37,819 bases of DNA from a virus: positions 1-37,819 of the IMG/VR virus record IMGVR_UViG_3300025127_004719. One strand, given 5' to 3'. The notes beneath the pieces were generated by a model that was not told the DNA's origin, made no database searches, and was given only the letters and a program-made list of their open reading frames with translations. This document shows, in pieces, positions 630 to 27,766 of this stretch. Made by a program: the position numbers and the translations under genes. Position 1 is the first letter of the stretch. Every line of letters begins with the position of its first letter.

Positions 630-1142
630 CTAGTCTACGGAGATTTCAGAAACAAATTGGCCAGTAGCTGAGGTGCCCGCCCCGCCAGCTGTTAGTGTCA
701 TAACGCCCGCTGAAGTAATTGTACCAGCAAGACTGCCTGCCACACCACCACTTTGAGTAGTTACACTACCATAAGCGGGCATGTCAGCAACAATACCAGC
801 AGATACGTCAACACCAGTTCCTATTGGATTTACTGCGTCGCCTAAAATAAATGATTCTGTTAAGCTGAACGCACTGCCAGCAGTTGTAACTGAATATGAA
901 CCTTGAGTCTGACTAGCAGCCGCAGTTGTAATTGTATCTCCAGCTGATTTGGTGAGTCCACCCATAGTACCAGCGGTGATATTGTTACCACTTACACTGT
1001 AAGTTGAACCAATTCTTGTAGCCTGAGTCGCTGCCCCGTCCACACTGAGTTGTGTACTTGTAGTCAAACGGTGTATCAAATCGGCCCTTGCTGCCATGGG
1101 AGCCGCCATCAAAAGCATAATTATAGGTAAAAATCTTTTCAT
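630..1142 (-). CDS. Small exported protein, function unknown
   Basis: About 170 residues from the ATG at 1142. A GTG four codons upstream (1154) is in frame, but ATG is preferred because it gives a classic signal peptide (MKRFLPIIMLLMAAPMAARA, cut before DLIHRL) and has GGGAA just upstream. The mature part is low in charge and rich in Gly, Thr, Ser, Ala and Val, with alternating small residues typical of beta structure. It resembles its downstream neighbour in character, though I see no clear sequence repeat between them. A perfect late-promoter box lies 28 bases upstream of the ATG, so it should be made late with the virion proteins. Function unknown; an envelope or virion-surface role is inference only. 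Confidence 0.75.
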   Translation of the reverse strand: MKRFLPIIMLLMAAPMAARADLIHRLTTSTQLSVDGAATQATRIGSTYSVSGNNITAGTMGGLTKSAGDTITTAAASQTQGSYSVTTAGSAFSLTESFILGDAVNPIGTGVDVSAGIVADMPAYGSVTTQSGGVAGSLAGTITSAGVMTLTAGGAGTSATGQFVSEISVD

Positions 1143-1169
1143 GTGATTTCCCACTATTTTTTCTAGCCG

Positions 1170-1786: not shown

Positions 1787-2659
1787 TTAACTAGGGATAA
1801 TGAAACTTCCTTTCATACCAGCATGGCCTGGTACAGTGCATTGATACTCATAACTTGCTGGTGCATCATGTGGTATTGTAAATATCTGTACTCCTGTTTG
1901 AGATCCACTGACATATGTTCCTACGCCTGTAGTTGTGTTTGTAAATTGAATACGGAATGGATGTGAACCACCTGTTGAGTTCTCAAACATATATGAGAAA
2001 CCTCTCATCAAATAAAGAGTAGGATTTCCCACAGTGTTTCTTTGTCCAGGCCCTGCCATACTGTATGAAGAAGAACCGTTTGCAGTAATATAATATCTGG
2101 TACAGAATCCTCTACCAGTTCCATTGCCAGGAATAAGATCAGTAACAAAACTACCAGAAGTTGTGATTCCAGTAACATCTAGAGTTGCTAATGTTAGGTT
2201 TTGTGGTGTACTTGCACCAGCAATAGTAATTGTCTTAGTTGCTGCACCACCAGATGCAACCACTCCATCACCAACGAAGTTGAGTGTAGTTGCAGTTCCT
2301 AATCCACTTCCTTCATCTTGAACTTGAATTCCACTATCACTTGCAGCTGCGTTTACAGTTACAGATCCACCTGATAGTGCAGTTACAGTTAAGTTAGTTC
2401 CGAAATCTATTGTTCCAGCAGTTCCTACTAAACCACCGCCATCTTTAACGATAATACCACTTCCAGAAGCAGTGATTCCTGTTAGTAAAGATCCATCACC
2501 ACTAAACTTTGTTGCAGTAATTACTCCTGTGACTGCGGTATTGGTCTGAATTGCAACTTGACCAGCTTTTAAATTTAGGTCGCCGTTACTCTCTATAGTT
2601 GGGTCGCCACTTGCTCCAACTATATTAAGATCCTTTACACCGAACGATTTTTCTGCCAT
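1787..2659 (-). CDS. Tail-fibre-like protein with C-terminal cupredoxin (type-1 copper-like) domain
   Basis: 290 residues. Residues 1-190 consist of fibre-type repeats: a GDGSLLTGIT motif, then GSGIIVKDGGGLVG, then beta-rich Gly/Thr/Val stretches, closely like modules in the 986-aa protein of the same operon. Residues about 195-290 look like a small cupredoxin: SHPFRIQF with His233, then YEYQCTVPGHAGMKG with Cys274, His279 and Met282. That order (His, later Cys, His, Met) is the type-1 copper ligand pattern of plastocyanin and azurin. The His-Met spacing is shorter than usual, so copper binding is inferred, not shown. There is no signal peptide, as expected for a virion protein assembled in the cytoplasm. 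A late-type promoter box precedes it. Confident as a fibre-like structural protein; moderately confident in the copper site. Confidence 0.8.
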   Translation of the reverse strand: MAEKSFGVKDLNIVGASGDPTIESNGDLNLKAGQVAIQTNTAVTGVITATKFSGDGSLLTGITASGSGIIVKDGGGLVGTAGTIDFGTNLTVTALSGGSVTVNAAASDSGIQVQDEGSGLGTATTLNFVGDGVVASGGAATKTITIAGASTPQNLTLATLDVTGITTSGSFVTDLIPGNGTGRGFCTRYYITANGSSSYSMAGPGQRNTVGNPTLYLMRGFSYMFENSTGGSHPFRIQFTNTTTGVGTYVSGSQTGVQIFTIPHDAPASYEYQCTVPGHAGMKGSFIIPS

Positions 2660-2677: not shown

Positions 2678-2685
2678 TATTTATT
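2678..2685 (-). promoter_or_regulatory. T4-type late promoter box AATAAATA
   Basis: The minus strand reads AATAAATA about 20 bases upstream of the ATG at 2659, one base off the T4 late consensus. The box overlaps the TAA stop of the upstream protease gene. It would add late transcription of the cupredoxin-bearing protein and the genes after it. Confidence 0.6.
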
Positions 2686-4894
2686 AGGAGAACTTTATCT
2701 CAACTCCACCACTAAACTTTAGGTTAGGTGAGTTTGTGATTCTGATCTCAGGTTTTTTAGGTTCAGAGGGTGAACCAGTGGGAGCATCCCATATTACAAC
2801 AGGACCTTGACCATACATTTGGACGGAATACATATCTTCCCATGCCTGTGTTGTTGCAGTAAAAGATGTAATGTTATCACCATAATAAAATCTGTCAGGA
2901 TCTTGAGTTCCACAGTTATTTTTCAACCAGTTTTTCACATCCCTCCAAGTCCAGTCTCTATTATATTGTAACTTGGTAGTAATCCATCCAGCACATGTAG
3001 GACATGCAGAACTAGTTCCACCAAAGTCAACGTCATAGGGGACAAATCCTAGTCCAGTATAGTCTTCTGGATGAGGATATGTTAAGTCTGAATCTCTACC
3101 ATCAGCTGTGAGTGTATCGTCAGCAGCACCAAAACAGTCAATACCTGTTCCCATGTCACTATAACTGACTTTCTTTTCTTTATAGTCTGTTTGATTACCA
3201 CCTAACCCACTACTTATATACTGGTCATCTAATGCACCAATATTGATGCAAGCATACTCAGTTCCAGCAGTGGATATTCCAGATGTGGTCTTACCGAGTG
3301 CCTGAGGCCATCCTCTTCTGTTGACAGTGTTATAACATTGTAAACCAAATTCAAAATGAGTTGCAGATTGTAAGGAGACACTATCACCTTGAGAAGATGT
3401 AGACCAATAGTTATCAAAATCAAGATCGCCAGGACTTGTTTGAGTCTGATTACTGTTACCAGCTGCAGCAATGAATATGACTCCCGCTTCAGCTAACTCA
3501 TCACCAGCTGCGGTGACAGAACTGTCTATCATCTCACCTTTACATCTACTACCATCACCATATGCACCTAGTAGATCAAAGAAAGCTGGTTCACTACCAC
3601 TGTTATATGACACACCAGTTACAGTTCCGTCTATCGCTGATGGTCTATACCAATAATATCCAGTGGTATGAATACTGCTTGATCTATATCCCCAACTATT
3701 ACTTGATGTTGTGGGATTTTTTGTATCATTTTCTCTACCAGTTATTGCAGAATGTCTATCATAGTTGGGTTTATACAAGTGAAATAGTTTCTGTACATCA
3801 AACTGACTACCATTGATTCCAGCATTAGATCCCCCTATACCATTGATAACCCATTTGTTGGCATTGTATGCTGAACCATAGTTCTTACCAAATACTTGAC
3901 CAGCACATTGAGTTCCGTGATCAGAATTATTTTGTGGTTTTGAAGTATTAGTACCGTTGCAATTATCTCTTGTATATGAACCACTAATACCATTTGTGGT
4001 CCCTATAGTAGAGAATCCCACTGATCTTTGACTAGAATTAGACCACCATGCTCTTGCAACAGATTCTACTGGAACTGTTGTACCGTCCCAACGTTGAGTT
4101 AATCTATTGTCTGGATCTGCATTGAACCAGTCTGGATCAATATAATATGGGCCATCAAGAACTACATCTAGAACACCACATGTGCCTGGTGTTGTAGATA
4201 TACCACTCCATGTCAATGCGTTTCCTGTTGACCATCCTACAGGATCATCGGCAGTTGTTACAAATTCTGGGTGTGCAATCCAGAAACCATCATCAGATAC
4301 GATTGCATCTACGCCAGTTCCGTCACCTAATTGTTTTGGTTCTGTCTCTATTATTATATGATCAGATCCAGTCAGTCCAGTGGATGTTGCATCCCAAGGA
4401 TTTTCTTTTTGTGTGTGTCTCAGTATTTGATATCCAGTTCTGTTCTTATCTGATGCACCTATACCAGCCTGAGATGTAGGTGGTGTGGATGGTGCAGTAT
4501 TCCATGCTCTGTAGTTAGATACTGTCTTATTAAATCTACCAAACCTCCTTACACCAGCGACAATATCTTTTGGATCTGGAGAATAGTTGCCTGGGTAAAC
4601 GTCATAGTCAATACACACCCACTGCACCTTCTCATGTTTTCTTAGATCTTCTGCTTCCGCATCAGTCAACATGTAAGTTGCTCTGGTATCACTGTGTTCT
4701 TTCTTGTCGGGACACACTATAGATGGATCTGGAATATTATCCTCCAGTGAACCATCTTTCTCTAGTTCTTCGTGAATGAATACCCAATCATCTTTGGTAT
4801 AACACTTGATGGAGTATGCTTTCTTATCATCAGCTCCAGTTGGTTTGACAGCCAACCCTGTCCTATCAAGAGTGTTCGTACTAGTATGAATCAT
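2684..4894 (-). CDS. Subtilisin-family (S8) serine protease in the tail-fibre operon
   Basis: 736 residues. The S8 subtilase signature is complete: an Asp region IVSDDG (Asp201), HGTQCAG (His326), the oxyanion-hole IAAAGN (Asn480) and GGTSSACP (Ser628). Residues 1-180 form an N-terminal extension and a long C-terminal tail follows the Ser block, ending in a short beta-rich segment (IRITNSPNLKFSGG). There is no signal peptide, so this is more likely a virion-borne protease than a secreted one. It overlaps the stop of the 986-aa fibre protein by four bases (ATGA) and precedes the cupredoxin-bearing fibre protein, implying coordinated late expression and tail or fibre location. Substrate unknown: it could mature fibre proteins or act on host surface proteins. 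Confidence 0.9.
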   Translation of the reverse strand: MIHTSTNTLDRTGLAVKPTGADDKKAYSIKCYTKDDWVFIHEELEKDGSLEDNIPDPSIVCPDKKEHSDTRATYMLTDAEAEDLRKHEKVQWVCIDYDVYPGNYSPDPKDIVAGVRRFGRFNKTVSNYRAWNTAPSTPPTSQAGIGASDKNRTGYQILRHTQKENPWDATSTGLTGSDHIIIETEPKQLGDGTGVDAIVSDDGFWIAHPEFVTTADDPVGWSTGNALTWSGISTTPGTCGVLDVVLDGPYYIDPDWFNADPDNRLTQRWDGTTVPVESVARAWWSNSSQRSVGFSTIGTTNGISGSYTRDNCNGTNTSKPQNNSDHGTQCAGQVFGKNYGSAYNANKWVINGIGGSNAGINGSQFDVQKLFHLYKPNYDRHSAITGRENDTKNPTTSSNSWGYRSSSIHTTGYYWYRPSAIDGTVTGVSYNSGSEPAFFDLLGAYGDGSRCKGEMIDSSVTAAGDELAEAGVIFIAAAGNSNQTQTSPGDLDFDNYWSTSSQGDSVSLQSATHFEFGLQCYNTVNRRGWPQALGKTTSGISTAGTEYACINIGALDDQYISSGLGGNQTDYKEKKVSYSDMGTGIDCFGAADDTLTADGRDSDLTYPHPEDYTGLGFVPYDVDFGGTSSACPTCAGWITTKLQYNRDWTWRDVKNWLKNNCGTQDPDRFYYGDNITSFTATTQAWEDMYSVQMYGQGPVVIWDAPTGSPSEPKKPEIRITNSPNLKFSGGVEIKFS

Positions 4895-7851
4895 AGTCCT
4901 TGAATTAAGGTCTTAACGAATCTGTATGTTGTTAGTCCAGATATTCCAGCCTCAGGTGTAAACTTAACCAAGACATTGGTGCTACTTACTGTTGCAGCGA
5001 TGGATACCTGTTGTTCTGGGGTGAACATGATAGCATATTCTTGTGAGTATGCTGTAACTCCGTCGTGCATTACTAGAACTTTCTGTGATTGTCTATATGT
5101 TCCTATACCAATCATGAATGTGTATTCTGCACTTGAGTAACTAGCGACTGGGAATGAATCTATTTGTTGTTCAACACCAGCAGATGCAGTGAATGTTCCG
5201 AATCCAGTAGTAGAAACTCCTCCACCACCACCTGTTGCAGTGATCGTGATAGTTGCATCAGTTCCAGATGCCGTTGCAGTCACACCAGATCCAACGAAGT
5301 TGATTGATGTTACACCTGATGCAACATTAGTTCCCTCTTCTTTGATGATAACACCACTTCCACCACCACCTGTAGGTGCAGATGGAACCCATGATGATCC
5401 ATTCCATGTTAGTACATTGTTAACACTTGGGCCCGCATTAGAAACATTAGATAGATCACCTAAGTTTTGACTATTAATATTTGTTAGATATCCAGCACTT
5501 GCATGATTGCCCCAACCATATGCAGTCTCATACTGTGTGATATCAAGTGCAGTTATATTTGCTGCAGGGCCTGTGAAAGGAACTGCTCCTGCCAAGTTAA
5601 CAGTTGCAACTCCACCACTATGAGTTACTGTACATGCAGATCCGATAAAGTTAACTGTTTGTGCAGTACCAACGGTAGATCCTTCTTCTTGATATACCAT
5701 ACCAGCGATACCACCACCTCCACCACCACCTGATGCGGTGACTGTTACAACACCAGCAGATGCAGCAGATACGGATAGATTTGTACCAAAGTTAATAGTA
5801 CCAATGGTTCCTACAAGTGTGCCATCGTCTCTGATTATGATACCTGTACCAGATGCAGTAACACCAGTTATTCCAGAACCATCACCAATAAAACTTTGAG
5901 CAGTTACAACACCAACATTCAAACTAGGAATTCCAGTTAACCCCTCTGCCAGAGTTGCGACTCCAGCTACCGCTGTATATGTGACTGCGATTCCAGTTAT
6001 ACCAGATCCGTCACCAGCGAATGATGTTGCAGTTACAACACCAATATTATAGTTCTCAGTTCCTGTTCCTACAGTAGTATCAGCATTTTTATTAACAAGT
6101 TCTCTCCAACCTATAGCATTATTATTGAGTGCTAATCTATTTCCTTGACCTGTGTGGAAGTGACACCAATACCAAAGTGTGTTAGGTGCAGACGCTGGAG
6201 GTGTAAAGTGTACAGTCTTAGTAGTAGCAGTAGAAAAACCACTGGTGTATTCTGCCATGGTTTTTTCGACACCATCTAGTCTGTAAACTGTAGTGGTAGG
6301 ATCATAGTGAGCTCCGCCTGGTATCAAGTCTCCATCTTCTGTCAGACTGAACATGAGTGGGTGAGCCTGATTATTATAGTTGGCATTTGAAGCATCATTC
6401 TGATCAAACAGATAAGTCGCTCCTCTTGTTATGGGGAATTGATCTGGTTTTTCTACACCATTAAAGTAGAATACACCTGTTGCTTGACCGCCCACAGTGT
6501 CTGTGCCGACTGCAACTTGAACTGTTATCTCTTCCTTATGACCATAGTATGCCTTATCAAATTCATTAACGTGTGCAAATTGACCATGATTTACTCCCGC
6601 TGATGGTAGATCACTATAATTATTCCATAAGTGGGGTAGAATATTACCTGTTGCAGTGCCGTCTAAACGACCAGCAAGTCTCATATTACCTACAACTTTG
6701 AGTTTGTATCCTTCATTGTTGGTAGTACCAATACCAACACTGGTCAACGTGTGAATACCAGTTGTATTCGATCTCCATATACTATCTGTTGATGGTAAGT
6801 TAGTAAGTTCAGAACCATCACCAGCAAACTTAGATGCAGTTACGACACCTACAGTAAAGTAGTTGCCATACATGTCTTGATGAAGTATCTGTCTCCAACC
6901 ATTGTAACCACCCATTGTGGTTCCAGTTGAAACATATGCTCTCTTAAGGTTGTTTGCATAAGCAAACATACCTCTCCAACTTGTAGCAGAGGGTAGATCA
7001 CCTGTTGCGTCAAAGTCGAAACGCATCTTACTGCCTTGGCCTGGGAAGGTTACAATTCCAGTACCATTAATATTATCGACAAGTATTGATGGAGTTCCTG
7101 TTAAATTCTGTGCGACTGAGGCGATGCCTGCTGTATGTGCATACCCTGCCATGGTTGAGAACCCTGCATTGGCAACGTATGATGCGATACCAGCTACCTT
7201 TGCATACTCGGCTACTCCTGAGTTAGTTGAAACTCCAGATGCTGATGCGTATGTTACAATACCAGCGACTGTGGCAAAGTTTGCACTGATTGCCAAGGTT
7301 GCTGTGTCAGCGAATCCAGTTGTTGCTGATCTAGTAGCAATTCCAGAAGAGTCTGCGTATGCAGATGTAGTAGAAAATCCAGAAGTAAATGCAAATCCTA
7401 CCGTGTCAGCAGCAGAAACTGTGACATTACCACCAAATACCTGTGTAACATCTAAGTTGTTATCGAAGTTAAGACTTTGTGCAACACCAACTAGTACACC
7501 ACTATCTTTAATGACAACACCAGAACCTGTTGCAGTCACACCAGTTAGACCAGAACCATCTCCAACGAATGTTCCAGTTGTAATACCTGTTAATTGAACG
7601 TTACCTGATACAAATAAAGCTGCACTAGGATCAGTTGTGCCTATACCTACGTTCTTACTTGTGTATATTCCTGAGTTCCCTGCCTTAGTCCAAGTACCAG
7701 CACTCCCTGCATTGGCACTAAGATTATCTCCGTCACCAAAGGTTTGATATATCTCTGTAAAGTTTGCATTAACCTTACTTGCACCTAAGGCTAGGGAATC
7801 TCCCAGTCCATCGTTCGGTGTGAATCCAGTAAATATTCCCTGACGAGCCAT
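4891..7851 (-). CDS. Large tail-fibre-like repeat protein with internal cupredoxin-like domain
   Basis: 986 residues. The N-terminus (GFTPNDGLGDSLALGASKVN, then ANFTEIY) is a common start of phage baseplate or fibre proteins. The rest is built of repeats: several FxGDGS(G/E)(L/I)T motifs, Ala/Gly/Ser/Thr-rich stretches around residues 150-240 with repeated AGIA(T/S)YA-like units, and beta modules with a GSGVVIKDSG...VG...NF pattern occurring at least four times. Residues about 440-577 differ and look like a cupredoxin fold: His497 in HPLMFS and the block WYWCHFHTGQG with Cys563, His566 and Gln569. The C-terminal ~100 residues after a Gly run form a separate beta-rich tip. It is the first gene leftward of a late promoter. 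Fibre or adhesin role is inferred from architecture. Confidence 0.85.
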   Translation of the reverse strand: MARQGIFTGFTPNDGLGDSLALGASKVNANFTEIYQTFGDGDNLSANAGSAGTWTKAGNSGIYTSKNVGIGTTDPSAALFVSGNVQLTGITTGTFVGDGSGLTGVTATGSGVVIKDSGVLVGVAQSLNFDNNLDVTQVFGGNVTVSAADTVGFAFTSGFSTTSAYADSSGIATRSATTGFADTATLAISANFATVAGIVTYASASGVSTNSGVAEYAKVAGIASYVANAGFSTMAGYAHTAGIASVAQNLTGTPSILVDNINGTGIVTFPGQGSKMRFDFDATGDLPSATSWRGMFAYANNLKRAYVSTGTTMGGYNGWRQILHQDMYGNYFTVGVVTASKFAGDGSELTNLPSTDSIWRSNTTGIHTLTSVGIGTTNNEGYKLKVVGNMRLAGRLDGTATGNILPHLWNNYSDLPSAGVNHGQFAHVNEFDKAYYGHKEEITVQVAVGTDTVGGQATGVFYFNGVEKPDQFPITRGATYLFDQNDASNANYNNQAHPLMFSLTEDGDLIPGGAHYDPTTTVYRLDGVEKTMAEYTSGFSTATTKTVHFTPPASAPNTLWYWCHFHTGQGNRLALNNNAIGWRELVNKNADTTVGTGTENYNIGVVTATSFAGDGSGITGIAVTYTAVAGVATLAEGLTGIPSLNVGVVTAQSFIGDGSGITGVTASGTGIIIRDDGTLVGTIGTINFGTNLSVSAASAGVVTVTASGGGGGGGIAGMVYQEEGSTVGTAQTVNFIGSACTVTHSGGVATVNLAGAVPFTGPAANITALDITQYETAYGWGNHASAGYLTNINSQNLGDLSNVSNAGPSVNNVLTWNGSSWVPSAPTGGGGSGVIIKEEGTNVASGVTSINFVGSGVTATASGTDATITITATGGGGGVSTTGFGTFTASAGVEQQIDSFPVASYSSAEYTFMIGIGTYRQSQKVLVMHDGVTAYSQEYAIMFTPEQQVSIAATVSSTNVLVKFTPEAGISGLTTYRFVKTLIQGL

Positions 7852-13288: not shown

Positions 13289-13978
13289 ATGAAATATATT
13301 TTTGACGTTGATGGGACTCTCACTCCCAGCAGAAAGAAAATTGATCCAGACTTTCTAATATTCTTTAACAGTTTTGCTCTTGCAAACGAGGTCTATCTCG
13401 TCACAGGAAGCGATAGGGATAAGACTATAGAACAAATCACACACCTTCTCTATTGTAATTGTAAGAGGGTGTATAATTGTGCTGGCAATGATGTATATGA
13501 AGGCGACATTTCCATCTATACTAATCCTTGGACACTGCCACTAGATGCAAGAGAACATCTAAATGAGGAATTACTTGAAAGTACTTTCCCTGTCAGAACA
13601 GGAACTCACATAGAGGAAAGGCCAGGTTGTGTAAATTTTAGTATTGTTGGTAGAGGTGCCAATCAGACAGAAAGATTAGTGTATAGTGATTGGGATACTA
13701 TAAAAGAAGAGAGGAAAGGAATAGCAGAGAGATTCAATAAAAAGTTTCCTGATTTACAAGCCTTTGTTGGTGGTATAACAGGCGTAGATATATCAAGTAA
13801 AGGAAGTGATAAGAGTCAGATCATCAGAGACTTTATGGACGGTGATGTAGTGTTCTTTGGAGACAGGTTAGATCCACATGGGAATGACAGACCACTAGCA
13901 GATGCGATTGAGAAAAATAAATTAGGTACGGTAGTAGAAGTCTTAGGTTGGGAAGATACTTGGAAAAAACTAACATGA
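13289..13978 (+). CDS. HAD-superfamily hydrolase, phosphomannomutase-like
   Basis: 229 residues. The N-terminus MKYIFDVDGTLTPSRKK holds the HAD nucleophile motif DxDGT (Asp6, Asp8). Later LVTGSDRDKT is the Ser/Thr motif II, SSKGSDKSQI supplies the Lys, and VVFFGDRLDPHGNDRP is the acidic motif IV. The GDR-x-P-x-GND ending closely resembles alpha-phosphomannomutases of the eukaryotic type (HAD IIB), which convert mannose-6-phosphate and mannose-1-phosphate. That would feed GDP-mannose to the downstream cassette, where a GDP-mannose 3,5-epimerase homologue is encoded. No alternative start exists before the DxD motif, so the ATG at 13289 is firm even though the promoter leaves no leader. HAD membership is secure; the exact substrate is inferred. 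Confidence 0.8.
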   Translation: MKYIFDVDGTLTPSRKKIDPDFLIFFNSFALANEVYLVTGSDRDKTIEQITHLLYCNCKRVYNCAGNDVYEGDISIYTNPWTLPLDAREHLNEELLESTFPVRTGTHIEERPGCVNFSIVGRGANQTERLVYSDWDTIKEERKGIAERFNKKFPDLQAFVGGITGVDISSKGSDKSQIIRDFMDGDVVFFGDRLDPHGNDRPLADAIEKNKLGTVVEVLGWEDTWKKLT

Positions 13979-18780: not shown

Positions 18781-18983
18781 CTCCAGAAGAAAAAGAACTA
18801 AGATCAATTTACAATTTTTATAAAGATACCAAGAAAGGTTTCTTTACTAAGGATGGATATGCAGCAGTGCCTTGCGGAGAAAAGAAAAGAGTGATAGTAT
18901 ATGAAGGAGAGATCCTACACACGGCTCTCAATGATGACACCGCAAGAAATTGGATTGCACGCCATAGAAAGAAAAGAAAATGA
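18777..18983 (+). CDS. Small basic protein of unknown function
   Basis: 68 residues starting MTPEEKELRSIYNFYKDTKK, with a central strand-turn segment (KKRVIVYEGEILHTA) and a very basic C-terminus RHRKKRK. Overlaps both neighbours by four bases (ATGA), which makes it likely to be translated. The basic tail could bind nucleic acid. No recognised family. Confidence 0.65.
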   Translation: MTPEEKELRSIYNFYKDTKKGFFTKDGYAAVPCGEKKRVIVYEGEILHTALNDDTARNWIARHRKKRK

Positions 18984-19717
18984 AAGTATTAGTCACAGGT
19001 CATAAAGGTTTCATTGGCAGTCATGTCTTTGATTTTCTGAGTGACATCTTTGATGTTGATGGATTAGACAGACCAGACGACATAGAAAACTTTGTAGATG
19101 TTGGATGTGCGGACTATGATCTTATAATTCATCTAGCAGCCTACGCCGCACTTAGAGATAGTGTAGATAATCCTGATAAATTCTGGGAGAACAACGTTGA
19201 AAAATCTAAACCCATATTTGATTATTGCAGAAAGTATAATACTAGGTTGTTGTATGCAAGTTCTGCTGGTGCATATAGTTGGTGGCAGAATCCCTACGCC
19301 ATAACAAAGAAAGTAAATGAGATACAGGCTCCACCTAACAGTGTGGGTATGAGGTTCTTCAATGTATGGGCAGAGGAAGGAAGTAGAGATGATATGTTAT
19401 ATGAAATGTTGAAACAAGGAACTGCAAAATATATCACAAGACATAAGAGAGATTGGGTTCATGTACTAGATGTTGTCAGAGCGATTGCAACCTTGATTCC
19501 CAGTTCATTTACAGGAACAATAGATGTAGGAACAGGACAGATGACTTCTGTGATAGATTTGGCCAATGCCATGGGTATGGGTCATCTTCCTATCAAGGAG
19601 GACACACCTAATGAACCCGATGAGTTGTGTGCTAATATAGAACCTCTCATGGAACTTGGTTGGTTTCCAACCGTTAACATTTTAGATACGGTTATTGCGA
19701 AAACCGTCAGTGTGTGA
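18980..19717 (+). CDS. NAD(P)-dependent sugar-nucleotide epimerase/dehydratase (extended SDR)
   Basis: 245 residues. The dinucleotide-binding loop TGHKGFIGSH (Gly7, Gly10, Gly13) opens the Rossmann fold; YASSAGAYS supplies the Ser near 94-95 and NPYAITKK the Tyr106/Lys110 pair of the SDR active site. It is somewhat short for UDP-glucose 4-epimerases (about 330 residues), with a reduced C-terminal substrate domain. Probable substrate is an NDP-sugar; the particular reaction cannot be read. It overlaps the preceding gene and is followed by a late-type promoter before the GDP-mannose 3,5-epimerase homologue. Confidence 0.85.
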   Translation: MKVLVTGHKGFIGSHVFDFLSDIFDVDGLDRPDDIENFVDVGCADYDLIIHLAAYAALRDSVDNPDKFWENNVEKSKPIFDYCRKYNTRLLYASSAGAYSWWQNPYAITKKVNEIQAPPNSVGMRFFNVWAEEGSRDDMLYEMLKQGTAKYITRHKRDWVHVLDVVRAIATLIPSSFTGTIDVGTGQMTSVIDLANAMGMGHLPIKEDTPNEPDELCANIEPLMELGWFPTVNILDTVIAKTVSV

Positions 19718-19720
19718 TAC

Positions 19721-19728
19721 ACTAAATA
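19721..19728 (+). promoter_or_regulatory. Late-type promoter box ACTAAATA
   Basis: ACTAAATA differs from TATAAATA at its first two positions; CTAAATA-type boxes are, as I recall, used by cyanomyoviruses. It is preceded by a small AGTGT/ACACT hairpin and lies 24 bases upstream of the ATG at 19753. It would allow late expression of the sugar cassette. Confidence 0.45.
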
Positions 19729-19752
19729 AGGTGAAGTTTATTTTAAACTTGT

Positions 19753-20808
19753 ATGAATAAGAAAACAGCACTAGTATTGGGTGCAGGCGGCTTCATTGGA
19801 AGTCACATGGTAAAACGATTACGATCAGAAGGGTATTGGGTTCGTGGCGTAGATTTAAAGTACCCCGATTTCACTATGAGTGCTGCAGACGAGTTCATTC
19901 AAGGTGACTTGAGAGATGTAGGTTTGGTTGCAACAGCATTAGATGTTGAAGGAGATTCCTTTGACGAGATCTATCAGTTTGCTGCAGACATGGGTGGAGC
20001 TGGTTACATCTTTACGGATGAACACTCTGCTGATATCATGCACAACTCTGCTTCAATCAATCTAAATGTATTGAACGAACAAGTTACACTGAATAGATTG
20101 TTGGGAGTAAACAAAACAAAGATATTCTATTCTAGTTCTGCATGTATGTACCCAGAACATAATCAATTAGATCCTAACAACCCAGATTGCCGTGAAGAAT
20201 CCGCTTACCCTGCTAACCCTGACTCCGAATATGGATGGGAAAAACTCTTCTCGGAAAGATTATATCTCGCTTATAACCGTAACTATAATATACCTGTTTG
20301 CGTTGCTCGCTACCATAACATTTTCGGTCCCGAAGGAACATGGGATGGAGGAAAAGAAAAGGCTCCAGCAGCTATCTGCCGCAAGGTTGCGTTACTCCCA
20401 GCAGTGGGAGGAACGATTGAGGTGTGGGGTGATGGCTTGCAGACAAGATCCTTCCTCTTCATCGACGAATGTATTGAAGCAACCTATAGATTGATGCACT
20501 CTGATTTCCAAGGCCCTGTAAATATAGGATCGGAAGAAATGGTTACTATCAATGAGTTGGTAGAAACTGCAGCAAGAGTATCAGGAAAGGTTGTCAGAAA
20601 GGCACACAAACTTGATGCACCTCTAGGTGTTCGTGGACGTAACTCAAACAACGATCTTGTAAGAGAGAAACTTGGATGGGATTATTCACAGACTCTTGAA
20701 GAAGGAATTGCCAAGACTTATGCTTGGATCTCTGAACAGATTAAATCTCGCCAACATGGCGTAGTTGAAATTACATCAAAGGAACTAGAACATGCCGAAA
20801 GTATCTAA
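19753..20808 (+). CDS. GDP-mannose 3,5-epimerase homologue
   Basis: 351 residues, the usual length of this family. The Rossmann loop LGAGGFIGSH is followed by QFAADMGGAGYIF, FYSSSACMYPEHNQL (catalytic Cys131), PDSEYGWEKL (Tyr160, Lys164), RYHNIFGPEGTWDGG, KEKAPAAICRKV (Lys203), then EVWGDGLQTRSFLFIDEC and GVRGRNSNND. These segments closely track plant GDP-mannose 3,5-epimerase, which makes GDP-L-galactose (and GDP-L-gulose) from GDP-mannose in vitamin C and cell-wall synthesis. All catalytic residues I know of are present. Because GT10/GT11-type transferases lie downstream, L-galactose or a related sugar could be their donor. Overlaps the next gene by 17 bases. Confidence 0.9.
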   Translation: MNKKTALVLGAGGFIGSHMVKRLRSEGYWVRGVDLKYPDFTMSAADEFIQGDLRDVGLVATALDVEGDSFDEIYQFAADMGGAGYIFTDEHSADIMHNSASINLNVLNEQVTLNRLLGVNKTKIFYSSSACMYPEHNQLDPNNPDCREESAYPANPDSEYGWEKLFSERLYLAYNRNYNIPVCVARYHNIFGPEGTWDGGKEKAPAAICRKVALLPAVGGTIEVWGDGLQTRSFLFIDECIEATYRLMHSDFQGPVNIGSEEMVTINELVETAARVSGKVVRKAHKLDAPLGVRGRNSNNDLVREKLGWDYSQTLEEGIAKTYAWISEQIKSRQHGVVEITSKELEHAESI

Positions 20809-21382
20809 GAAAACTATCAAACTTGATAAGGATGCAATCAAAACTCTAGATGTATCTCATCTAGCAGAACAATCACTCAATGCAAATGACTGGCTTACTG
20901 CTGGTCAGAGTGAGTATAGATTATATGCTTGGTTATCGAAACAATTTAATAACACCACCATCTTAGATGTTGGTACAAGAACAGGCGGATCTGCTCTAGC
21001 ATTATCTTATAACGATAAAAACAAAGTTATAAGTTATGACCTAGTAGAGCAGGGCGCCTCTTCTGGTATTAAGAAAGATAATGTTGAATTTAAGATTCAA
21101 GATTTCCGTGAAGATGATACTCTAGATTACGATAATATTTCTATCATAATGATTGATGTTGATCCACATGATGGCACAGCAGAGGAAGAGATGTTTGAAT
21201 ACCTAGAAGAAAAAGGATGGAAAGGTTTAGTTTTACTTGATGACATAGGACCACAATGGCCAGAGATTGAAGATTTCTGGAATAGAATTACATTCCCTAA
21301 AATTAATGTAACAGAGGTTGGACATATGAGTGGAACAGGTCTAGTAAATTTTGATGAGAAACATAATGTTTCTTGGCTCTAA
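20792..21382 (+). CDS. SAM-dependent methyltransferase-like protein
   Basis: 196 residues. TTILDVGTRTGGSALAL (about residues 55-71) is the class I SAM-binding motif, VISYDL the acidic end of strand 2, and IIMIDVDPHDG and LVLLDDIG follow at motif positions IV and V. The pattern is like Methyltransf_24-type enzymes found in glycan clusters. Acceptor unknown; an O-methylated sugar is likely from context. Begins inside the 3' end of the epimerase gene and abuts the next SDR gene with TAATG. Confidence 0.75.
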   Translation: MPKVSKKTIKLDKDAIKTLDVSHLAEQSLNANDWLTAGQSEYRLYAWLSKQFNNTTILDVGTRTGGSALALSYNDKNKVISYDLVEQGASSGIKKDNVEFKIQDFREDDTLDYDNISIIMIDVDPHDGTAEEEMFEYLEEKGWKGLVLLDDIGPQWPEIEDFWNRITFPKINVTEVGHMSGTGLVNFDEKHNVSWL

Positions 21383-22287
21383 TGGAGGTTGTTATTACTG
21401 ACATGGATTATGAAGTAGATTATTTTGAAGGAAAGACTCGTAAGATTTTAGTTTTAGGATCAGGTGGTCAGGTAGGAGCATATCTTACCGAGTATCTCAG
21501 GTGTGCTGATGTTGAAGTCATGGAGTTTGATATTACTAATGGTCCTGATCAGGACATGACGGTCATTCCAAACGGTGAACTAGAAGCCAAAATTTATATG
21601 GCAGATTTTGTTTACTTTCTTGCCTTTGATGTAGGTGGTTCACACTATCTTAAAAAATATCAACATACTTTTAATTTCATTGACAACAATACTAGACTTA
21701 TGGCAAATGCCTTTGGTCTAATAGAGAAGTATAAGAAACCATTTGTATTTGCATCATCACAGATGAGTAATATGTCTTACTCTCCCTACGGTGTATTGAA
21801 AAGAGTTGGCGAACTTTATACTAAGTCTCTTGGTGGATTGATCGTCAAGTTCTGGAATGTATATGGTATCGAGAAAGACATGGACAAGGCACATGTCATT
21901 ACAGATTTCATTCGTAAAGGATTTGAAACTGGTGTCATAGATATGATGACAGACGGAACTGAAGCGAGGGAATTTCTTTATGCAGAAGATTGTTGTGAGG
22001 CATTGGAAACTGTTATGGATGAATATGACAACCTCTCTTGTGACGATGAACTTCATATTACTACTGGTGTTTATACAACTGTTCTGGAAATTGCAGAAGA
22101 AATTAAATCATTATTCTTCAGTATTGGAAAGAAAATCACGGTTATCCCAGACGAGAAAAAGGACTCGGTGCAGAGGGATGCTAGAAATGTACCAGACCCA
22201 TACATAAAAGAATTTTGGCAACCCACTACCTCTGTTAAAGAGGGTTTGAAAAAAGTATTTGAGGAGATGAAAAAGGACTATGAATAA
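21382..22287 (+). CDS. NAD-dependent epimerase/dehydratase (extended SDR)
   Basis: 301 residues from the ATG at 21382; an in-frame TTG nine bases upstream is less likely because the ATG overlaps the previous stop. After a short acidic leader the dinucleotide loop LGSGGQVGAYL (about residues 26-36) begins the Rossmann fold. VFASSQMSNMSYSPYGVLKR carries the Ser, Tyr and Lys of the active site. KFWNVYGIEKDMDK and EAREFLYAEDC are typical of the substrate domain of sugar-nucleotide epimerases. The reaction is not resolvable. It lies between a methyltransferase and a GT10 transferase, so it probably prepares a donor sugar. Confidence 0.8.
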   Translation: MEVVITDMDYEVDYFEGKTRKILVLGSGGQVGAYLTEYLRCADVEVMEFDITNGPDQDMTVIPNGELEAKIYMADFVYFLAFDVGGSHYLKKYQHTFNFIDNNTRLMANAFGLIEKYKKPFVFASSQMSNMSYSPYGVLKRVGELYTKSLGGLIVKFWNVYGIEKDMDKAHVITDFIRKGFETGVIDMMTDGTEAREFLYAEDCCEALETVMDEYDNLSCDDELHITTGVYTTVLEIAEEIKSLFFSIGKKITVIPDEKKDSVQRDARNVPDPYIKEFWQPTTSVKEGLKKVFEEMKKDYE

Positions 22288-23257
22288 GTATGATGCTGAG
22301 GCTGAAGCACTTAGACTTGCAGTTGAAAAAGCAAAACAAAATCCAGGCGGTATGGACTTTCCTGTTCTTGGTCCTGATCAAAAGTTTCCAATAAATTTGT
22401 TCTGTAATGATTCTCTAGAACCATCCACATCAGCGAACAATAGATCTGTTTTTACTAGATGGATTCGTAATGGAACTGGTCTAGTAAATCTATATGTAAA
22501 TGGAGAAGCACTTAAAGTTTTAGAAGATGATTCTGATAAACCTAAATTTATTTGGTTGTTAGAATCAAGAGAAATTATCCCAGATCAATATAAATTTATA
22601 GAAGAAAATTATGATTTTGTTGCTAGTAGGGTTGATGGGATCTTTACTGCTGATCAGAGACTCACAACTGAGGCTGGCCCTGATGGTAAATTTCTCTATT
22701 GTTTGTCTAATGCTGCTCCTTGGGTTATGGATAGAGCCGTTTATAAGAAATCAAAACTGGTATCTATGATCGCATCCAACAAAGGATACACGGAAGGACA
22801 TCGCCGTAGACTCAGAGTTGTTCAGGCATTTGTAGATAAGTTTGGACAGGAAGATCTATATGGTTGGGGATTGACACATGAGTTACCATTGAAAGAAAAG
22901 TCCACAGGATTAAAAGATTACATGTTCTCCTTTGCTTGTGAGAACGCAAACTATCCAACATACTTCACTGAGAAGTTGACAGATTGTTTTGCCTGTGGGA
23001 CAATACCAGTATATTATGGAACGGCTGGTGTTGCACAGTATTTTAATCCAGATGGTATAATCTTTTTAGAATCAGCTGCACCTTGGGTTAATATTCCTTG
23101 GGAAAAACTCACACCAGAGTATTATGAATCCAAGAAAGATGTGATACAAGAAAACTTTGAGATTGCTCAGTGCATGAGAGTCGCAGAGGATTACATGTAT
23201 GGAAATTATCTCTATCAACTAGACCCACTTAGACAACAAAAACCACAATTAAAATGA
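22280..23257 (+). CDS. GT10 (alpha-1,3-fucosyltransferase-type) glycosyltransferase
   Basis: 325 residues. The C-terminal half has the GT10 donor-site signature MFSFACENANYPTYFTEKL, then DCFACGTIPVYYGTAG (about residues 213-250), preceded by SMIASNKGYTEGHRRRLRVV, the usual upstream basic motif. The N-terminal half is a divergent acceptor domain (FIWLLESREIIP). No signal peptide or membrane anchor: a cytoplasmic, bacterial-type GT10. GT10 enzymes transfer L-fucose from GDP-fucose. No GDP-fucose synthesis pair is visible in the window, while GDP-L-galactose synthesis may be, so the true donor is open. Overlaps both neighbours by a few bases. Confidence 0.85.
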   Translation: MNKYDAEAEALRLAVEKAKQNPGGMDFPVLGPDQKFPINLFCNDSLEPSTSANNRSVFTRWIRNGTGLVNLYVNGEALKVLEDDSDKPKFIWLLESREIIPDQYKFIEENYDFVASRVDGIFTADQRLTTEAGPDGKFLYCLSNAAPWVMDRAVYKKSKLVSMIASNKGYTEGHRRRLRVVQAFVDKFGQEDLYGWGLTHELPLKEKSTGLKDYMFSFACENANYPTYFTEKLTDCFACGTIPVYYGTAGVAQYFNPDGIIFLESAAPWVNIPWEKLTPEYYESKKDVIQENFEIAQCMRVAEDYMYGNYLYQLDPLRQQKPQLK

Positions 23258-24066
23258 GCGAAATCATTGACGTATCTGCCACTGCTGTTCAAGATGACCG
23301 CAGTGGATGGCAAGCAGAAGATCAAATTGCCGTAGAATATCTTGAAGCATGTAAAGAGGCTGTAGCATCTGATGATGCCTTTGCAAATTTCAAATCTAAT
23401 CCTAAGTACAAAACTATTTTAGAACATGTACTCAAGGATCAAGGACAAGCCTATCTTAATATCTGTAAGGATATGAATGAAGATGCAGTGTGGGATAATC
23501 TTGAGGCGTTCAAAGAGAATGATAAGATTGGTAATCCAGAGACACATGTATATCCAGGCATGGAAGGTCAGATTTCTCCCACCACTCTCAGATATATGAA
23601 GAATACTTTTGAGATGGGATTTTTACTTGATGGTGCTCCTGTTGGTAAAGTAGTAGAAGTAGGTGGTGGTTATGGCGGATTGTGTAGAGTGTTAAGTAAG
23701 GTATGTGAGTTTGATGAATATGTTTTGATAGATCTACCAGAGGTATCTGCTTTACAAAGAAAGTATTTGGATCAGTTTCCTGATCTAAAAGATAAGGTAA
23801 CTTGTATTCCATGTACAGAGTATGAAGAGATCAAAGATGTAGATCTTTTTATCAGTAATTATGCTCTATCTGAATGTGATTTGCCTACACAAATGGCATA
23901 TTATGATAAGATAATTACCAACTCTAAGTTTGTGTATATGATATACAACCTTGTCAATTTTAATGAAAACTACTATAATGATTTTATAGAGAAAATCAAA
24001 GCGGACTACACATTTGATGTGGGTCGTGATTATGAGAACACAGTAATTCTAGCAACTAAAAAATGA
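23254..24066 (+). CDS. Putative sugar O-methyltransferase (SAM-dependent)
   Basis: 270 residues. An N-terminal helical region of ~110 residues leads to SPTTLRYMKNTFEMGFLL and then VVEVGGGYGGLCRVLSKV (about 131-148), the SAM-binding motif, with YVLIDLPEV as motif II and DLFISNYALSE as motif IV. The preceding SPTTLRY-x-K segment is characteristic of the putative sugar O-methyltransferases of polysaccharide clusters. Would cap or decorate the glycan made by the neighbouring transferases. ATGA overlaps on both sides. Confidence 0.8.
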   Translation: MSEIIDVSATAVQDDRSGWQAEDQIAVEYLEACKEAVASDDAFANFKSNPKYKTILEHVLKDQGQAYLNICKDMNEDAVWDNLEAFKENDKIGNPETHVYPGMEGQISPTTLRYMKNTFEMGFLLDGAPVGKVVEVGGGYGGLCRVLSKVCEFDEYVLIDLPEVSALQRKYLDQFPDLKDKVTCIPCTEYEEIKDVDLFISNYALSECDLPTQMAYYDKIITNSKFVYMIYNLVNFNENYYNDFIEKIKADYTFDVGRDYENTVILATKK

Positions 24067-24824
24067 ATCGAGTAACGGATTATCGATCATTGGCCATAGA
24101 TGTAGTCGGATGGTTATGTAAGTATGCCAATGATAACAATGTAAAAAGTTTTGTAGTAGGAGTATCAGGTGGAATAGATTCTGCTGTGTCTTCTACTCTT
24201 GCAGCAAAGACTGGTAGACCAGTTTATGCAATAGGGATGCCACTTAACCAAAATCTAGATCAAGAGACACTATCAGATTCTCATCTATACTGGTTAGAAT
24301 GTAACTATCCTAATGTGAAAAGATTGAAGGCAGATCTCTCCGAAACTTACGCCAAGTTGATGACAGACTTGACAAAGGAATTTACAATGGAGTATACTGG
24401 ACATCCAATGGCGAAGGCCAATACTAAATCTAGATTACGAATGGTGACATTATATCATGTCGCTGCCAATGTAGGTGGTATAGTAGTAGGCACAGGAAAC
24501 AAAGTGGAGGATTATGGAGTCGGTTTTTATACTAAGTATGGTGACGGTGGTGTTGATATCGCCCCTCTTGCAGACCTTTATAAAACGGAGGTCAGAGAAC
24601 TCGGAAGAGAACTCGGAGTGATACCAGAGATCATTACTGCCACACCTACAGATGGTCTGTGGGAAGATGGTAGAAATGATGAAGATCAAATCGGTGCATC
24701 ATACGAACAATTAGAAGAGGCAATGGAGACAGGTGCAGGGCCTGGATTGGAAGCACTTCAAAAGTTCTATGCACAAAACAAACATAAAATGGATCCTATT
24801 CCAACGTACAAACTAGAGGTTTAA
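24063..24824 (+). CDS. nadE: NAD+ synthetase (ammonia-dependent)
   Basis: 253 residues. VVGVSGGIDSAVSS (residues 32-45) is the ATP-pyrophosphatase P-loop. GTGNKVEDYGVGFYTKYGDG and IAPLADLYKTEVRELGRELG, then PTDGLWEDGRNDEDQIG, are the signature blocks of bacterial NadE. No glutaminase domain is present, so ammonia is the expected nitrogen donor. It makes NAD+ from nicotinic acid adenine dinucleotide in the cytoplasm. Here it sits inside the sugar cassette, between a methyltransferase and a UDP-glucose dehydrogenase-type gene. It could supply NAD+ to the several NAD-dependent enzymes nearby, or be adapted to an amidation step in sugar synthesis. Confidence 0.9.
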   Translation: MNRVTDYRSLAIDVVGWLCKYANDNNVKSFVVGVSGGIDSAVSSTLAAKTGRPVYAIGMPLNQNLDQETLSDSHLYWLECNYPNVKRLKADLSETYAKLMTDLTKEFTMEYTGHPMAKANTKSRLRMVTLYHVAANVGGIVVGTGNKVEDYGVGFYTKYGDGGVDIAPLADLYKTEVRELGRELGVIPEIITATPTDGLWEDGRNDEDQIGASYEQLEEAMETGAGPGLEALQKFYAQNKHKMDPIPTYKLEV

Positions 24825-24831
24825 TTTTACA

Positions 24832-25983
24832 ATGAAAATCGGTGTAATCGGAGCAGGGAGACTCGGCATTTGTTTCGCTCTTCTCGCTGAGTCTGCTGGT
24901 CATGATGTTTATGTTTCTGATGTAAGACCAAATTATGTCGCACAAATAAATGCTAGAGAAATATTCAGTAACGAACCAGATGTAGAAGAACTCTTGATGG
25001 AGTCAAAACATCTGAGAGCCACCACTAACAATCAAGATGTTATTAAATCCTCTGATGTTATTTTTACTTTTGTTCCTACCCCTTCTTTAGATGATGGTAG
25101 TTATGATTGTAGTCTAGTTGATAGTGTCGTATGTGATTTGCTCAGAGCACCTAATCTAGAAGGTAAGAAGTTTATTGTGGGTTGCACTACCAATCCAGGC
25201 TTTGTTGATAAGGTAGATGAGAAATTAGAAGGAAGAGGTATAAGTGTATTCTATAGTCCTGAGTTTGTGGCGCAAGGTACAATCATCAGAGATATGAAGA
25301 ACGCAGATATGATTCTGTGTGGTGGTAGAGATGATGATGGATTTGAAAAGATCAAAGCGATCTATCTTTCATTCATGGATAGTCAGGTTAACTTCTATCC
25401 TATGTCTAATACTGCTGCAGAGATTACAAAGATCGGCATCAACTGTTTCCTAACTTACAAGATAAGTTATGCTAACATGATGGGTCAGATTCTATACAAC
25501 TCTGGGTGTGGTGATGAGATCAAAAACATTCTCTCATCCATAGGAGCAGACAGTAGAATCGGGTCTAAATATTTGAACTACGGTTTAGGTTTTGGTGGGC
25601 CTTGTCTACCTCGTGACAACCGTGCTTTAGGATACTATGCAGATAAGGTTGGTCTTAAGTATAGTCTTCCACAAGTAACTGATGATTTCAATGAGGCACA
25701 CGCAGACTTCATTAAAAACTACTGCGTTGAAAGAAATACAGAAGGTCTTGCCTTCTTCATTGATAGTATTGGTTATAAGATAGGATGTGATCTTGTAATA
25801 GAAAGTCCAAGACTTAGACTAGTAGAAGATCTACTAAAGGACGGGCATAGAGTATATGTTCAAGAGATTGATGATGTCATTGCGGAGTATCAAGAGGAAC
25901 TGGAAGAGGATTACGGAGATAATATTATCTTTGTAAAGGGTCGTAGTGAAGCACATGAAAGAACATGGAGGATTGATCTTTGA
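24832..25983 (+). CDS. ugd: UDP-glucose/GDP-mannose 6-dehydrogenase family protein
   Basis: 383 residues. GVIGAGRLGICFALL is the N-terminal NAD-binding loop, FTFVPTPSLDDGSYD and VGCTTNPGF are conserved loop segments, YSPEFVAQG holds Glu144, NCFLTYKISYANM the catalytic Lys210, and GLGFGGPCLPRDN the catalytic Cys258. These residues fit four-electron oxidation of a nucleotide sugar to a uronic acid. UDP-glucose is the commonest substrate, giving UDP-glucuronate, but GDP-mannose or UDP-HexNAc are possible. The protein is a little shorter than many family members. GAGG precedes the ATG by several bases. The next gene starts on its stop codon. Confidence 0.85.
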   Translation: MKIGVIGAGRLGICFALLAESAGHDVYVSDVRPNYVAQINAREIFSNEPDVEELLMESKHLRATTNNQDVIKSSDVIFTFVPTPSLDDGSYDCSLVDSVVCDLLRAPNLEGKKFIVGCTTNPGFVDKVDEKLEGRGISVFYSPEFVAQGTIIRDMKNADMILCGGRDDDGFEKIKAIYLSFMDSQVNFYPMSNTAAEITKIGINCFLTYKISYANMMGQILYNSGCGDEIKNILSSIGADSRIGSKYLNYGLGFGGPCLPRDNRALGYYADKVGLKYSLPQVTDDFNEAHADFIKNYCVERNTEGLAFFIDSIGYKIGCDLVIESPRLRLVEDLLKDGHRVYVQEIDDVIAEYQEELEEDYGDNIIFVKGRSEAHERTWRIDL

Positions 25984-26840
25984 CGATTAGTTATAATCGC
26001 CTTGGTAGTAATGGTAGACTTGGAAATCAAATGTTCCAGTATGCCTCTCTTCGAGGGATTGCAAATTACAATCAGTATCAGTGGATGATTCCGCCACCTG
26101 ATTGTAACCATAAAGATAATTATGGATTGTTTGATACCTTTGAAATGAAACATTGCAAACCAGAGAATTTAGGATTCAATGATGCAATGACCGTCAAAGA
26201 AAAAACACATGCTTTTGATGATGGTTTATTTTATTGTACAGATGGTGTCAACATAGATGCCTACCTTCAAACAGAAGATTACTTTGTTCACATTGCAGAT
26301 CAGATCCGTGAAGATTTCACATTTAAAAAAGATTTTCTTGAGCCTTGTCAGGAATTCATATCCAGTTTGGGTTCTTCTCCTATCTTCATTCATATTCGTC
26401 AATCTGATAATATTGGAAGAGAAGAATTCCACCCAATCCTCCCGCTCTCATATTTTGAGACTGCTCTAGAATTTTGGAGTCCAGACACTCCATGTTTTGT
26501 ATTCACAGATGATTTAGAATGGTGTAAGAATCAATCATTCTTTGACAACGATAGGTTTATCTTCAATGATAATCCTGAGCGATATGAATATCAAACGATA
26601 GATGGTACAGGACAGATGCAGAACACTTTGTTACCACAAGTTGACTTATGCTTGATGTCTTTGTGTTCTGGTGGTATAATAGCTAACAGTTCATTCAGTT
26701 GGTGGGGTGCTTGGTTGCAAAATGGTAGAGGTAATATCATTGCACCAGACCCAGAGAAGTGGTATGGTTCTGCCATGACACATCTTGATACAAGTATGAT
26801 GGTCCCTGCCCGTTGGCAGATACACTATTGGAGTAAATAA
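25980..26840 (+). CDS. GT11-type alpha-1,2-fucosyltransferase-like protein, copy 1
   Basis: 286 residues, starting with TTG at 25980 that overlaps the previous stop (TTGA) and has GGAGG eight bases upstream. SNGRLGNQMFQYASLRG is the GT11 N-terminal motif, CFVFTDDLEWCKNQ the mid motif, and LMSLCSGGIIANSSFSWWGA, then WLQNG, the C-terminal motif. The usual HxRRGD motif reads HIRQSDN, so the second Arg is lost, unlike copies 2 and 3. Activity may be altered or its partner different. GT11 enzymes use GDP-fucose. First of three homologues in this cassette. Confidence 0.85.
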   Translation: MTISYNRLGSNGRLGNQMFQYASLRGIANYNQYQWMIPPPDCNHKDNYGLFDTFEMKHCKPENLGFNDAMTVKEKTHAFDDGLFYCTDGVNIDAYLQTEDYFVHIADQIREDFTFKKDFLEPCQEFISSLGSSPIFIHIRQSDNIGREEFHPILPLSYFETALEFWSPDTPCFVFTDDLEWCKNQSFFDNDRFIFNDNPERYEYQTIDGTGQMQNTLLPQVDLCLMSLCSGGIIANSSFSWWGAWLQNGRGNIIAPDPEKWYGSAMTHLDTSMMVPARWQIHYWSK

Positions 26841-27766
26841 TGGCAATTTCATTTCAAGGATTAGGTAACGAAGGTAGACTTGGAAACCAAATGTTTCAGT
26901 ATGCTTTCGTAAGAGGGGTAGCTGCCAATCGTGGATTCGATTGGGTAATTCCAGGCCCTGATGCAGATAGGTTAGACAACTATGGTTTGTTTGAGGCCTT
27001 TGAATTATATGGATGTCTCCCACGAAATCAGGGAGAACCATTCTTTCATAAACAGGAAGTCTATAGAGACATGGCTTTCAATGAGAAGATCTATAATGAG
27101 TGTGAAGACAACACTAACTTCTCTGGTAACTTCCAAACAGAATATTATTTTGAATCTATCGCTGCAGATATCAGATACGATTTTACATTCAAGAAAGAAT
27201 ATCTAGAACCCTGTACAGAGTTTATTGAAGAGAACGGTGGACAAGATAAGAATATCTTCCTACATGTTCGTAGAGGTAATCCTAATGTGACAGGCAGAAG
27301 GGGAGAGAAATGGTCTTACCAGATGGTACAAGAGTATCATCCTATTTGTAAGAAAGAATATTATATTGAGGCACTATCAAAGTTCCCAGAAGATAAAAAT
27401 GTCATTGTAGTTTCTGACACTATTGATTGGTGTAAGAAACAGGATTGGTTACAGGGAGATAGATTCCTATTCTCTGATGCCTCTTATGAGGAGTTTGGAG
27501 ATGGTGCATCTGTTCCTTACATTGATCTATGCCTTATGACACTATGCGGTGGTGGTATCATTGCCAACTCATCTCTATCATGGTGGGGTGCATGGTTACA
27601 AAAAGGTGGCGACAAGATGGGTAAAAACTCTATCCAAAGACACTGGCAAGTTGTTGCTCCTGATCCTTGGTTTGGAATTAAGTATGACATGTATGACATG
27701 AAAGATTTGATCCCTCCACGTTGGATTAAATTACATAATGATCCATCATATATCGAGCCAGAATAA
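26840..27766 (+). CDS. GT11-type alpha-1,2-fucosyltransferase-like protein, copy 2
   Basis: 308 residues, ATG joined to the previous stop as TAATG. GNEGRLGNQMFQYAFVRG, HVRRGNPNV, IVVSDTIDWCKKQ and LMTLCGGGIIANSSLSWWGA match the GT11 family in order. The core HVRRG is intact, with Asn where the family often has Asp. It has an extra segment after the HVRRG motif (GRRGEKWSYQMVQEYHPI) that copy 3 shares but copy 1 lacks, so copies 2 and 3 are closer to each other. Cytoplasmic. Confidence 0.9.
   Translation: MAISFQGLGNEGRLGNQMFQYAFVRGVAANRGFDWVIPGPDADRLDNYGLFEAFELYGCLPRNQGEPFFHKQEVYRDMAFNEKIYNECEDNTNFSGNFQTEYYFESIAADIRYDFTFKKEYLEPCTEFIEENGGQDKNIFLHVRRGNPNVTGRRGEKWSYQMVQEYHPICKKEYYIEALSKFPEDKNVIVVSDTIDWCKKQDWLQGDRFLFSDASYEEFGDGASVPYIDLCLMTLCGGGIIANSSLSWWGAWLQKGGDKMGKNSIQRHWQVVAPDPWFGIKYDMYDMKDLIPPRWIKLHNDPSYIEPE

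Follow-up and report, generated by a model that had tools for sequence, protein, structure and literature searches.

A cupredoxin-like domain with a complete type-1 copper ligand set at the C-terminus of cyanomyovirus tail proteins

The C-terminus of P0001, a tail protein of 290 residues encoded in a 37.8-kb IMG/VR virus record (the window, meaning the whole stretch of DNA that was analyzed), is a cupredoxin-like domain that carries a complete type-1 copper ligand set. An earlier note had proposed such a domain at the C-terminus of a tail-fiber-like protein from the letters of the DNA, and the proposal is supported by a family profile, by fold prediction and by ligand conservation; the binding of copper is inferred. 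Far from being peculiar to a single phage, the domain is a module widespread among the baseplate and tail proteins of cyanomyoviruses. It most likely serves as a copper-bearing tail module that faces the host or a partner, and a redox function is possible.

1787-2659, minus strand: P0001, gp9-like tail/baseplate fiber protein of 290 residues (open reading frame; phrog_677; S-SSM7 gp9)
1790-2110, minus strand: cupredoxin domain, residues 184-290 (profile against PDB; AlphaFold2; Foldseek)
1961-1963, minus strand: His233, predicted copper ligand 1 (the N-terminal His), invariant in alignments A1 and A3 and aligned with the amicyanin His (2gb2)
1844-1846, minus strand: Tyr272, fifth invariant residue (A3)
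1838-1840, minus strand: Cys274, predicted thiolate ligand, invariant and aligned with the Cys in the loop YHCTPHPFM of amicyanin
1823-1825, minus strand: His279, predicted copper ligand (the C-terminal His), invariant in A1 and A3 and aligned in the PDB profile comparison
1814-1816, minus strand: Met282, predicted axial ligand, invariant in A3, with Gln in its place in a sister copy

The window is of the cyanomyovirus type. It carries psbA (PF00124, 3e-87) with a PhotoRC-II RNA element ahead of it, and its left end holds tail genes in synteny with those of Synechococcus phage S-SSM7. P0001 is 62% identical to S-SSM7 gp9 over its full length, and its residues 119-288 match positions 236-408 of the phrog_677 profile ('baseplate wedge tail fiber protein connector', 4.1e-42). 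The N-terminal half of P0001 is fiber repeat, and the PF07880 T4 gp9/gp10 anchor is absent both from P0001 in a Pfam search and from S-SSM7 gp9. The entire protein contains two Cys and three His residues. His233, Cys274, His279 and Met282 lie where the earlier note placed them in the reading frame, and the motifs SHPFRI and YQCTVPGHAGMKG that it quoted are both found. The C-terminal location that it gave likewise stands, but the extent requires correction, as the domain begins near residue 184 (window position ~2110), slightly before the proposed 2077. That the domain forms the tip of the fiber is inferred from its C-terminal position.

Searches with a single sequence returned weak matches (Pfam Copper-bind, 0.045; PDB auracyanin, 0.021). 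Neither P0001 (14.6 bits) nor the isolated domain (15.9 bits) reached the 21.2-bit cut-off of PF00127 Copper-bind, and the best relative matched this family with an E-value of 1.6e-4. Because such searches are too weak on their own, the case was settled by the family profile. Nearly all PDB matches to a profile of A1, an alignment of 28 members, are type-1 or CuA copper proteins; among them are CuNIR (1e-5), amicyanin (1.2e-5), plastocyanin, rusticyanin, auracyanin, azurin and CuA. With A3, an alignment of 79 sequences that share pairwise identities of 16-92% (median 43%), the corresponding values are 9e-8 for CuNIR and 6e-7 for amicyanin, the latter over most of the phage domain, and copper proteins account for 60 of the 60 matches listed. 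The HMM search against cupredoxin families that had been put forward as a check is thus positive for the family profile, searched against the PDB, and below the cut-off for the single sequence against PF00127.

Structure prediction and fold comparison, also put forward as a check, bear out the assignment and the Greek-key beta-sandwich typical of cupredoxins. The AlphaFold2 model of the domain has a pLDDT of 90.5 and a pTM of 0.82, and the best 50 Foldseek matches in the PDB all belong to the cupredoxin superfamily (probability 0.99-1.00), with moderate TM values of ~0.4-0.5. His233 is situated just ahead of strand 64-68 of the model, and Cys274, His279 and Met282 are located at and after the penultimate strand (98-103); this predicted placement is the ligand topology of cupredoxins. 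That the four side chains converge on one metal is inferred from their position relative to secondary structure and from the alignment to solved copper proteins, without recourse to distances. Cyanophage tail proteins are the best matches to the model in the BFVD library of viral structures. The same library also contains matches annotated as 'beta-sandwich protein' (A0A481YWX9, A0A481Z6J5 and others) from Marseillevirus- and Pithovirus-like metagenomic viruses (E ~1e-6), and it is possible, judging from these modeled structures, that giant viruses have cupredoxin-like proteins.

Only five of the 104 well-filled columns in A3 are invariant, and they correspond to His233, Tyr272, Cys274, His279 and Met282. 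As the four ligands had been named before any alignment was made and then proved to be invariant together with a single Tyr, the pattern goes beyond chance. All four are retained in 249 of 254 aligned copies, and of the five that do not retain them, two or three are truncated or split pieces. The codons for the ligand His and Cys residues vary synonymously (CAT/CAC and TGT/TGC), demonstrating that conservation acts on the amino acid. Because the peptide patterns used to fetch some of the loci contain ligand residues, the sampling slightly favors absolute ligand invariance, although copies without the site still turned up despite these patterns.

The spacing of the ligands is that of amicyanin (TIGR02657; PDB 1aac, 1sf3, 2gb2) in most copies: the loop reads C-x2-H-x2-M in 226 of the 254, all four ligands of which are in register with 2gb2 in a profile alignment, and C-x4-H-x2-M in 24, including the window copy. 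The earlier note had regarded the interval between His279 and Met282 as short, which left the axial ligand in doubt. The interval is not anomalous, C-x2-H-x2-M being the normal amicyanin loop, and given the shared His-x2-Met spacing and the alignment of the ligands to 2gb2, the doubt is answered. The window copy instead departs from amicyanin by an insertion of two residues between Cys and His, and does not meet the loop criterion of the amicyanin equivalog. Further differences are that amicyanin is a free-standing periplasmic electron carrier whereas the phage domain belongs to a tail protein, and that the His-Asn pair of amicyanin and plastocyanin is His-Pro in the phage domain. A distant copy in S-SKS1 (locus L091, 6001-6288) also has the C-x4-H-x2-M spacing (CTTGGHGGM), which suggests, as far as a comparison of sequences can, that the insertion may have arisen more than once.

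Using tblastn, the window domain retrieved 320 phage records and another member retrieved 353, nearly all from cyanophages; the exceptions include two Pelagibacter phages and one Actinomycetia phage. For scale, core gp8 is present in 459 records named Synechococcus, Prochlorococcus or Cyanophage. Searches of whole records located the domain in P-HM2, S-SM1, P-SSM4, Syn9 and S-SSM7, and gave no significant match in S-PM2 (best partial match, E=0.016), HTVC008M, T4 or P-SSP7. Canonical cyanomyovirus gp9 (phrog_677 / T4-GC 398; S-SSM5, P-SSM4, Syn9) has the same C-terminal domain and is homologous to the window protein through the C-terminal ~170 residues of the latter. Unlike the window and S-SSM7 proteins, the canonical form (S-SSM5, P-SSM4) has an N-terminal PF07880 T4_gp9_10_N domain. 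This anchor is common to T4 gp9/gp10 and the canonical cyanophage homologues, but T4 itself has no cupredoxin match. Further tail proteins also carry the cupredoxin domain, and it can be fused to a subtilase. In the window, the genes next to P0001 encode a subtilase and a tail fiber protein with a cupredoxin-like copy.

2684-4894, minus strand: subtilase (S8) gene with HGT and GTSSA motifs (PF00082, 6e-11; phrog_9158, 6e-178)
4891-7851, minus strand: tail fiber protein of 986 residues with an internal cupredoxin-like copy (phrog_6942, phrog_708, phrog_677)
6112-6513, minus strand: second cupredoxin-like domain, residues 447-580 of that protein, with H497 and C563-x2-H566-x2-Q569 (axial Gln; iterated HMM, 5e-21)

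The subtilase-like gene sits between two cupredoxin-bearing tail proteins. A subtilase lies directly upstream of the domain in 93 fetched loci, a count biased by the use of the cupredoxin domain to fetch these loci, and a subtilase-cupredoxin fusion is encoded by six ORFs. The phrog_9158 profile also matches the cupredoxin domain in 26 of 28 members. Downstream of the tail genes are two small proteins (142-615 and 633-1154, minus strand), one of which is a DUF6322 protein (8.6e-36) and the other weakly alike. A pattern scan of contigs for cellular relatives yielded only two contigs in bacterial MAGs, both with phage gene order; as the pattern was narrow, cellular relatives are not excluded. 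The two (PAWX01000033.1 and NZVD01000020.1) are cyanophage contigs in Gammaproteobacteria and Rhodopirellula MAGs, and their genes are arranged as in the window and in canonical gp9 loci.

The second domain of the window, within the 986-residue protein, aligns with the gp9 family in hhalign (98.3%, 1.3e-14), with His, Cys and His in register and Met opposite Gln. In the family of 31 relatives of this domain the His, Cys and His residues are invariant and the Gln nearly so, with Met in one locus (L391). Besides Met, Gln is the other natural axial ligand known. The AlphaFold2 model has a pLDDT of 78, Foldseek returned only Ig-like folds with poor E-values, and the profile of this domain alone found no cupredoxin in the PDB. 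Given the weaker predicted structure and a fold search without a clear match, the copy is held at lower confidence, and its putative assignment as a cupredoxin rests on profile-profile comparison and not on fold.

We consider it probable that an intact type-1, amicyanin-like cupredoxin module forms the terminal head of the fiber or baseplate, and that copper in the virion rigidifies a contact loop. Since the N-terminus of the canonical relatives is an anchor of the T4 gp9/gp10 type, the head is inferred to lie on the outer surface of the baseplate or short fibers. The assembled virion would hold one copper for each cupredoxin domain, the metal would link the strand of the first His to the Cys-His-Met loop, and the loop so stiffened would present a contact surface toward the cell surface or another tail component. 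Homology, fold, the full ligand set, its near-absolute conservation, the spread over tail proteins and the absence from T4 are computed results, and the identity of the metal as copper, its loading into the virion and a contact role as the reason for retention are all inferences. Against a copper head, the Cys could be oxidized or the site could be apo in oxic seawater. Virion proteomics of S-SM1 have been published (PMC3037559).

The main rival to a copper-bearing contact head is a redox-active site, in which Cu(II)/Cu(I) cycling at the cell surface or periplasm would allow the tail to sense or exploit the photosynthetic host's redox state, for instance by gating adsorption or the firing of the baseplate. 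In type-1 copper sites, the axial Met mainly tunes the potential. That this residue is as invariant in the phage domain as the His and Cys ligands lends mild support to a redox role, as does the finding that Gln is its only frequent alternative. The domain is present in P-HM2, a phage that fails to adsorb in darkness (PMC7112961), and not in P-SSP7, which can infect without light, but this comparison involves a single myovirus and a single podovirus. No partner for electron transfer has been identified. Adsorption of S-PM2 is reportedly light-dependent, and as this phage has no significant copy, any simple link between the domain and light-dependent adsorption is weakened; with no partner known, a general role in that process is disfavored. 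We regard a redox-active site as unlikely. A bolder version, for which we see somewhat less justification, is that cyanomyovirus virions are copper metalloparticles whose redox-active Met- and Gln-type heads, borne on baseplate and fiber proteins, help during adsorption to recognize the redox state of the photosynthetic cell surface or to respond to it.

The domain may also be merely a sturdy beta-sandwich adhesin, with the site empty or occupied by another metal. This explanation requires no copper supply, and copies without ligands do persist in the same proteins. The baseplate protein that adjoins gp9 in S-SSM5, Syn9, P-SSM4 and other phages contains two further diverged copies, of which the first retains His/Cys/His/Met and the second is without the Cys-His-Met loop; in the S-SSM5-type protein, LYLFAYTTAGHG stands where the loop is lost. 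Similarly, Cys, His and Met are gone together from tandem copies in two other loci, L232 and L253 (YYYQSSASLGVGG in the latter). The joint loss in these copies indicates that the fold can persist, and be useful, without the metal, and that the ligands are kept or lost as one unit. Such joint loss, and the near-absolute conservation of four ligands down to 16% identity, would not be expected of a metal-free fold, and we find this explanation doubtful.

Scavenging of metal, whereby the metal-uptake machinery of the host would recognize the virion copper as a Trojan horse, is improbable. Type-1 copper sites are buried and bind their metal tightly, and are ill suited to offering it for uptake; no host receptor is known, although copies of the domain do occur on predicted host-facing proteins. 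An iron version of the idea has been proposed for phage tails with HxH motifs, which provides a precedent (PMC11705849). Those fibers likewise place metal ligands on a phage tail protein, but they hold iron at HxH, whereas in the cyanophage domain the predicted site is a mononuclear type-1 copper center within a beta-sandwich.

Capture of a host plastocyanin (petE), joined to the fiber and mimicking the host electron carrier, can hardly be entertained and was rejected on the basis of a separate petE in S-SSM7, the lack of a profile match, the ligand spacing and the absence of a signal peptide. The two S-SSM7 genes are ~17 kb apart, with petE at 165.6 kb, adjacent to PTOX, and gp9 at 183.4 kb, and the gp9 family profile has no match to the true petE of S-SSM7, Syn9 or S-SM1 at E<=0.001. 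The separate petE products of S-SSM7, Syn9, S-SM1 and P-SSM5 have signal peptides and a C-x2-H-x4-M loop, with PTOX nearby, features that the gp9 domain lacks. P0001 does not meet the plastocyanin criteria of this loop and a signal peptide, having C-x4-H-x2-M at the C-terminal end of a fiber-repeat protein. The gp9 family and phage PetE (PF00127, T4-GC 225) do share the cupredoxin fold, the types of ligand and remote homology (hhalign, 90.8%), and the S-SCSM2R record annotates a homologue as PetE. The gene so labeled (locus L085, PQ898602.1, 6001-6507) is a gp9-type tail cupredoxin and not a plastocyanin, and its annotation is corrected here. As amicyanin and CuNIR rank as near to the domain as plastocyanin among its solved relatives, and the domain is separate from phage petE, the suggestion in the earlier note of a mimic of a host copper protein is without support.

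The fold and the site are already known; what appears to be undescribed is that they serve widely as a tail module. No paper in the open-access literature searched joins a phage or cyanophage tail or tail fiber to a cupredoxin or type-1 copper, and no prior description of cyanomyovirus gp9 as a copper protein was found in the open-access literature searched; subscription papers and preprints were outside this scope. Should the domain prove to bind copper, blue-copper centers would be present on the tails of a large share of ocean cyanophages. Virion metal sites of this class are unreported in that literature, and the virions would constitute a small copper pool. The site would then give a first chemical handle on cyanophage tail proteins that are mostly unassigned, would tie phage adsorption to copper and redox chemistry, and would offer a candidate mechanism, open to testing, by which the environment could control how cyanophages adsorb.

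Elsewhere in the window, a phosphomannomutase-like gene (13289-13978, plus strand) and a nucleotide-sugar and glycosyltransferase cluster (18980-30909, plus strand) that encodes epimerases, UDP-glucose/GDP-mannose dehydrogenase, GT10 and GT25 raise the possibility of glycan modification by the phage. A Mom-family DNA-modification gene (36182-36802, plus strand; PF25680, 1.9e-32) adjoins psbA.
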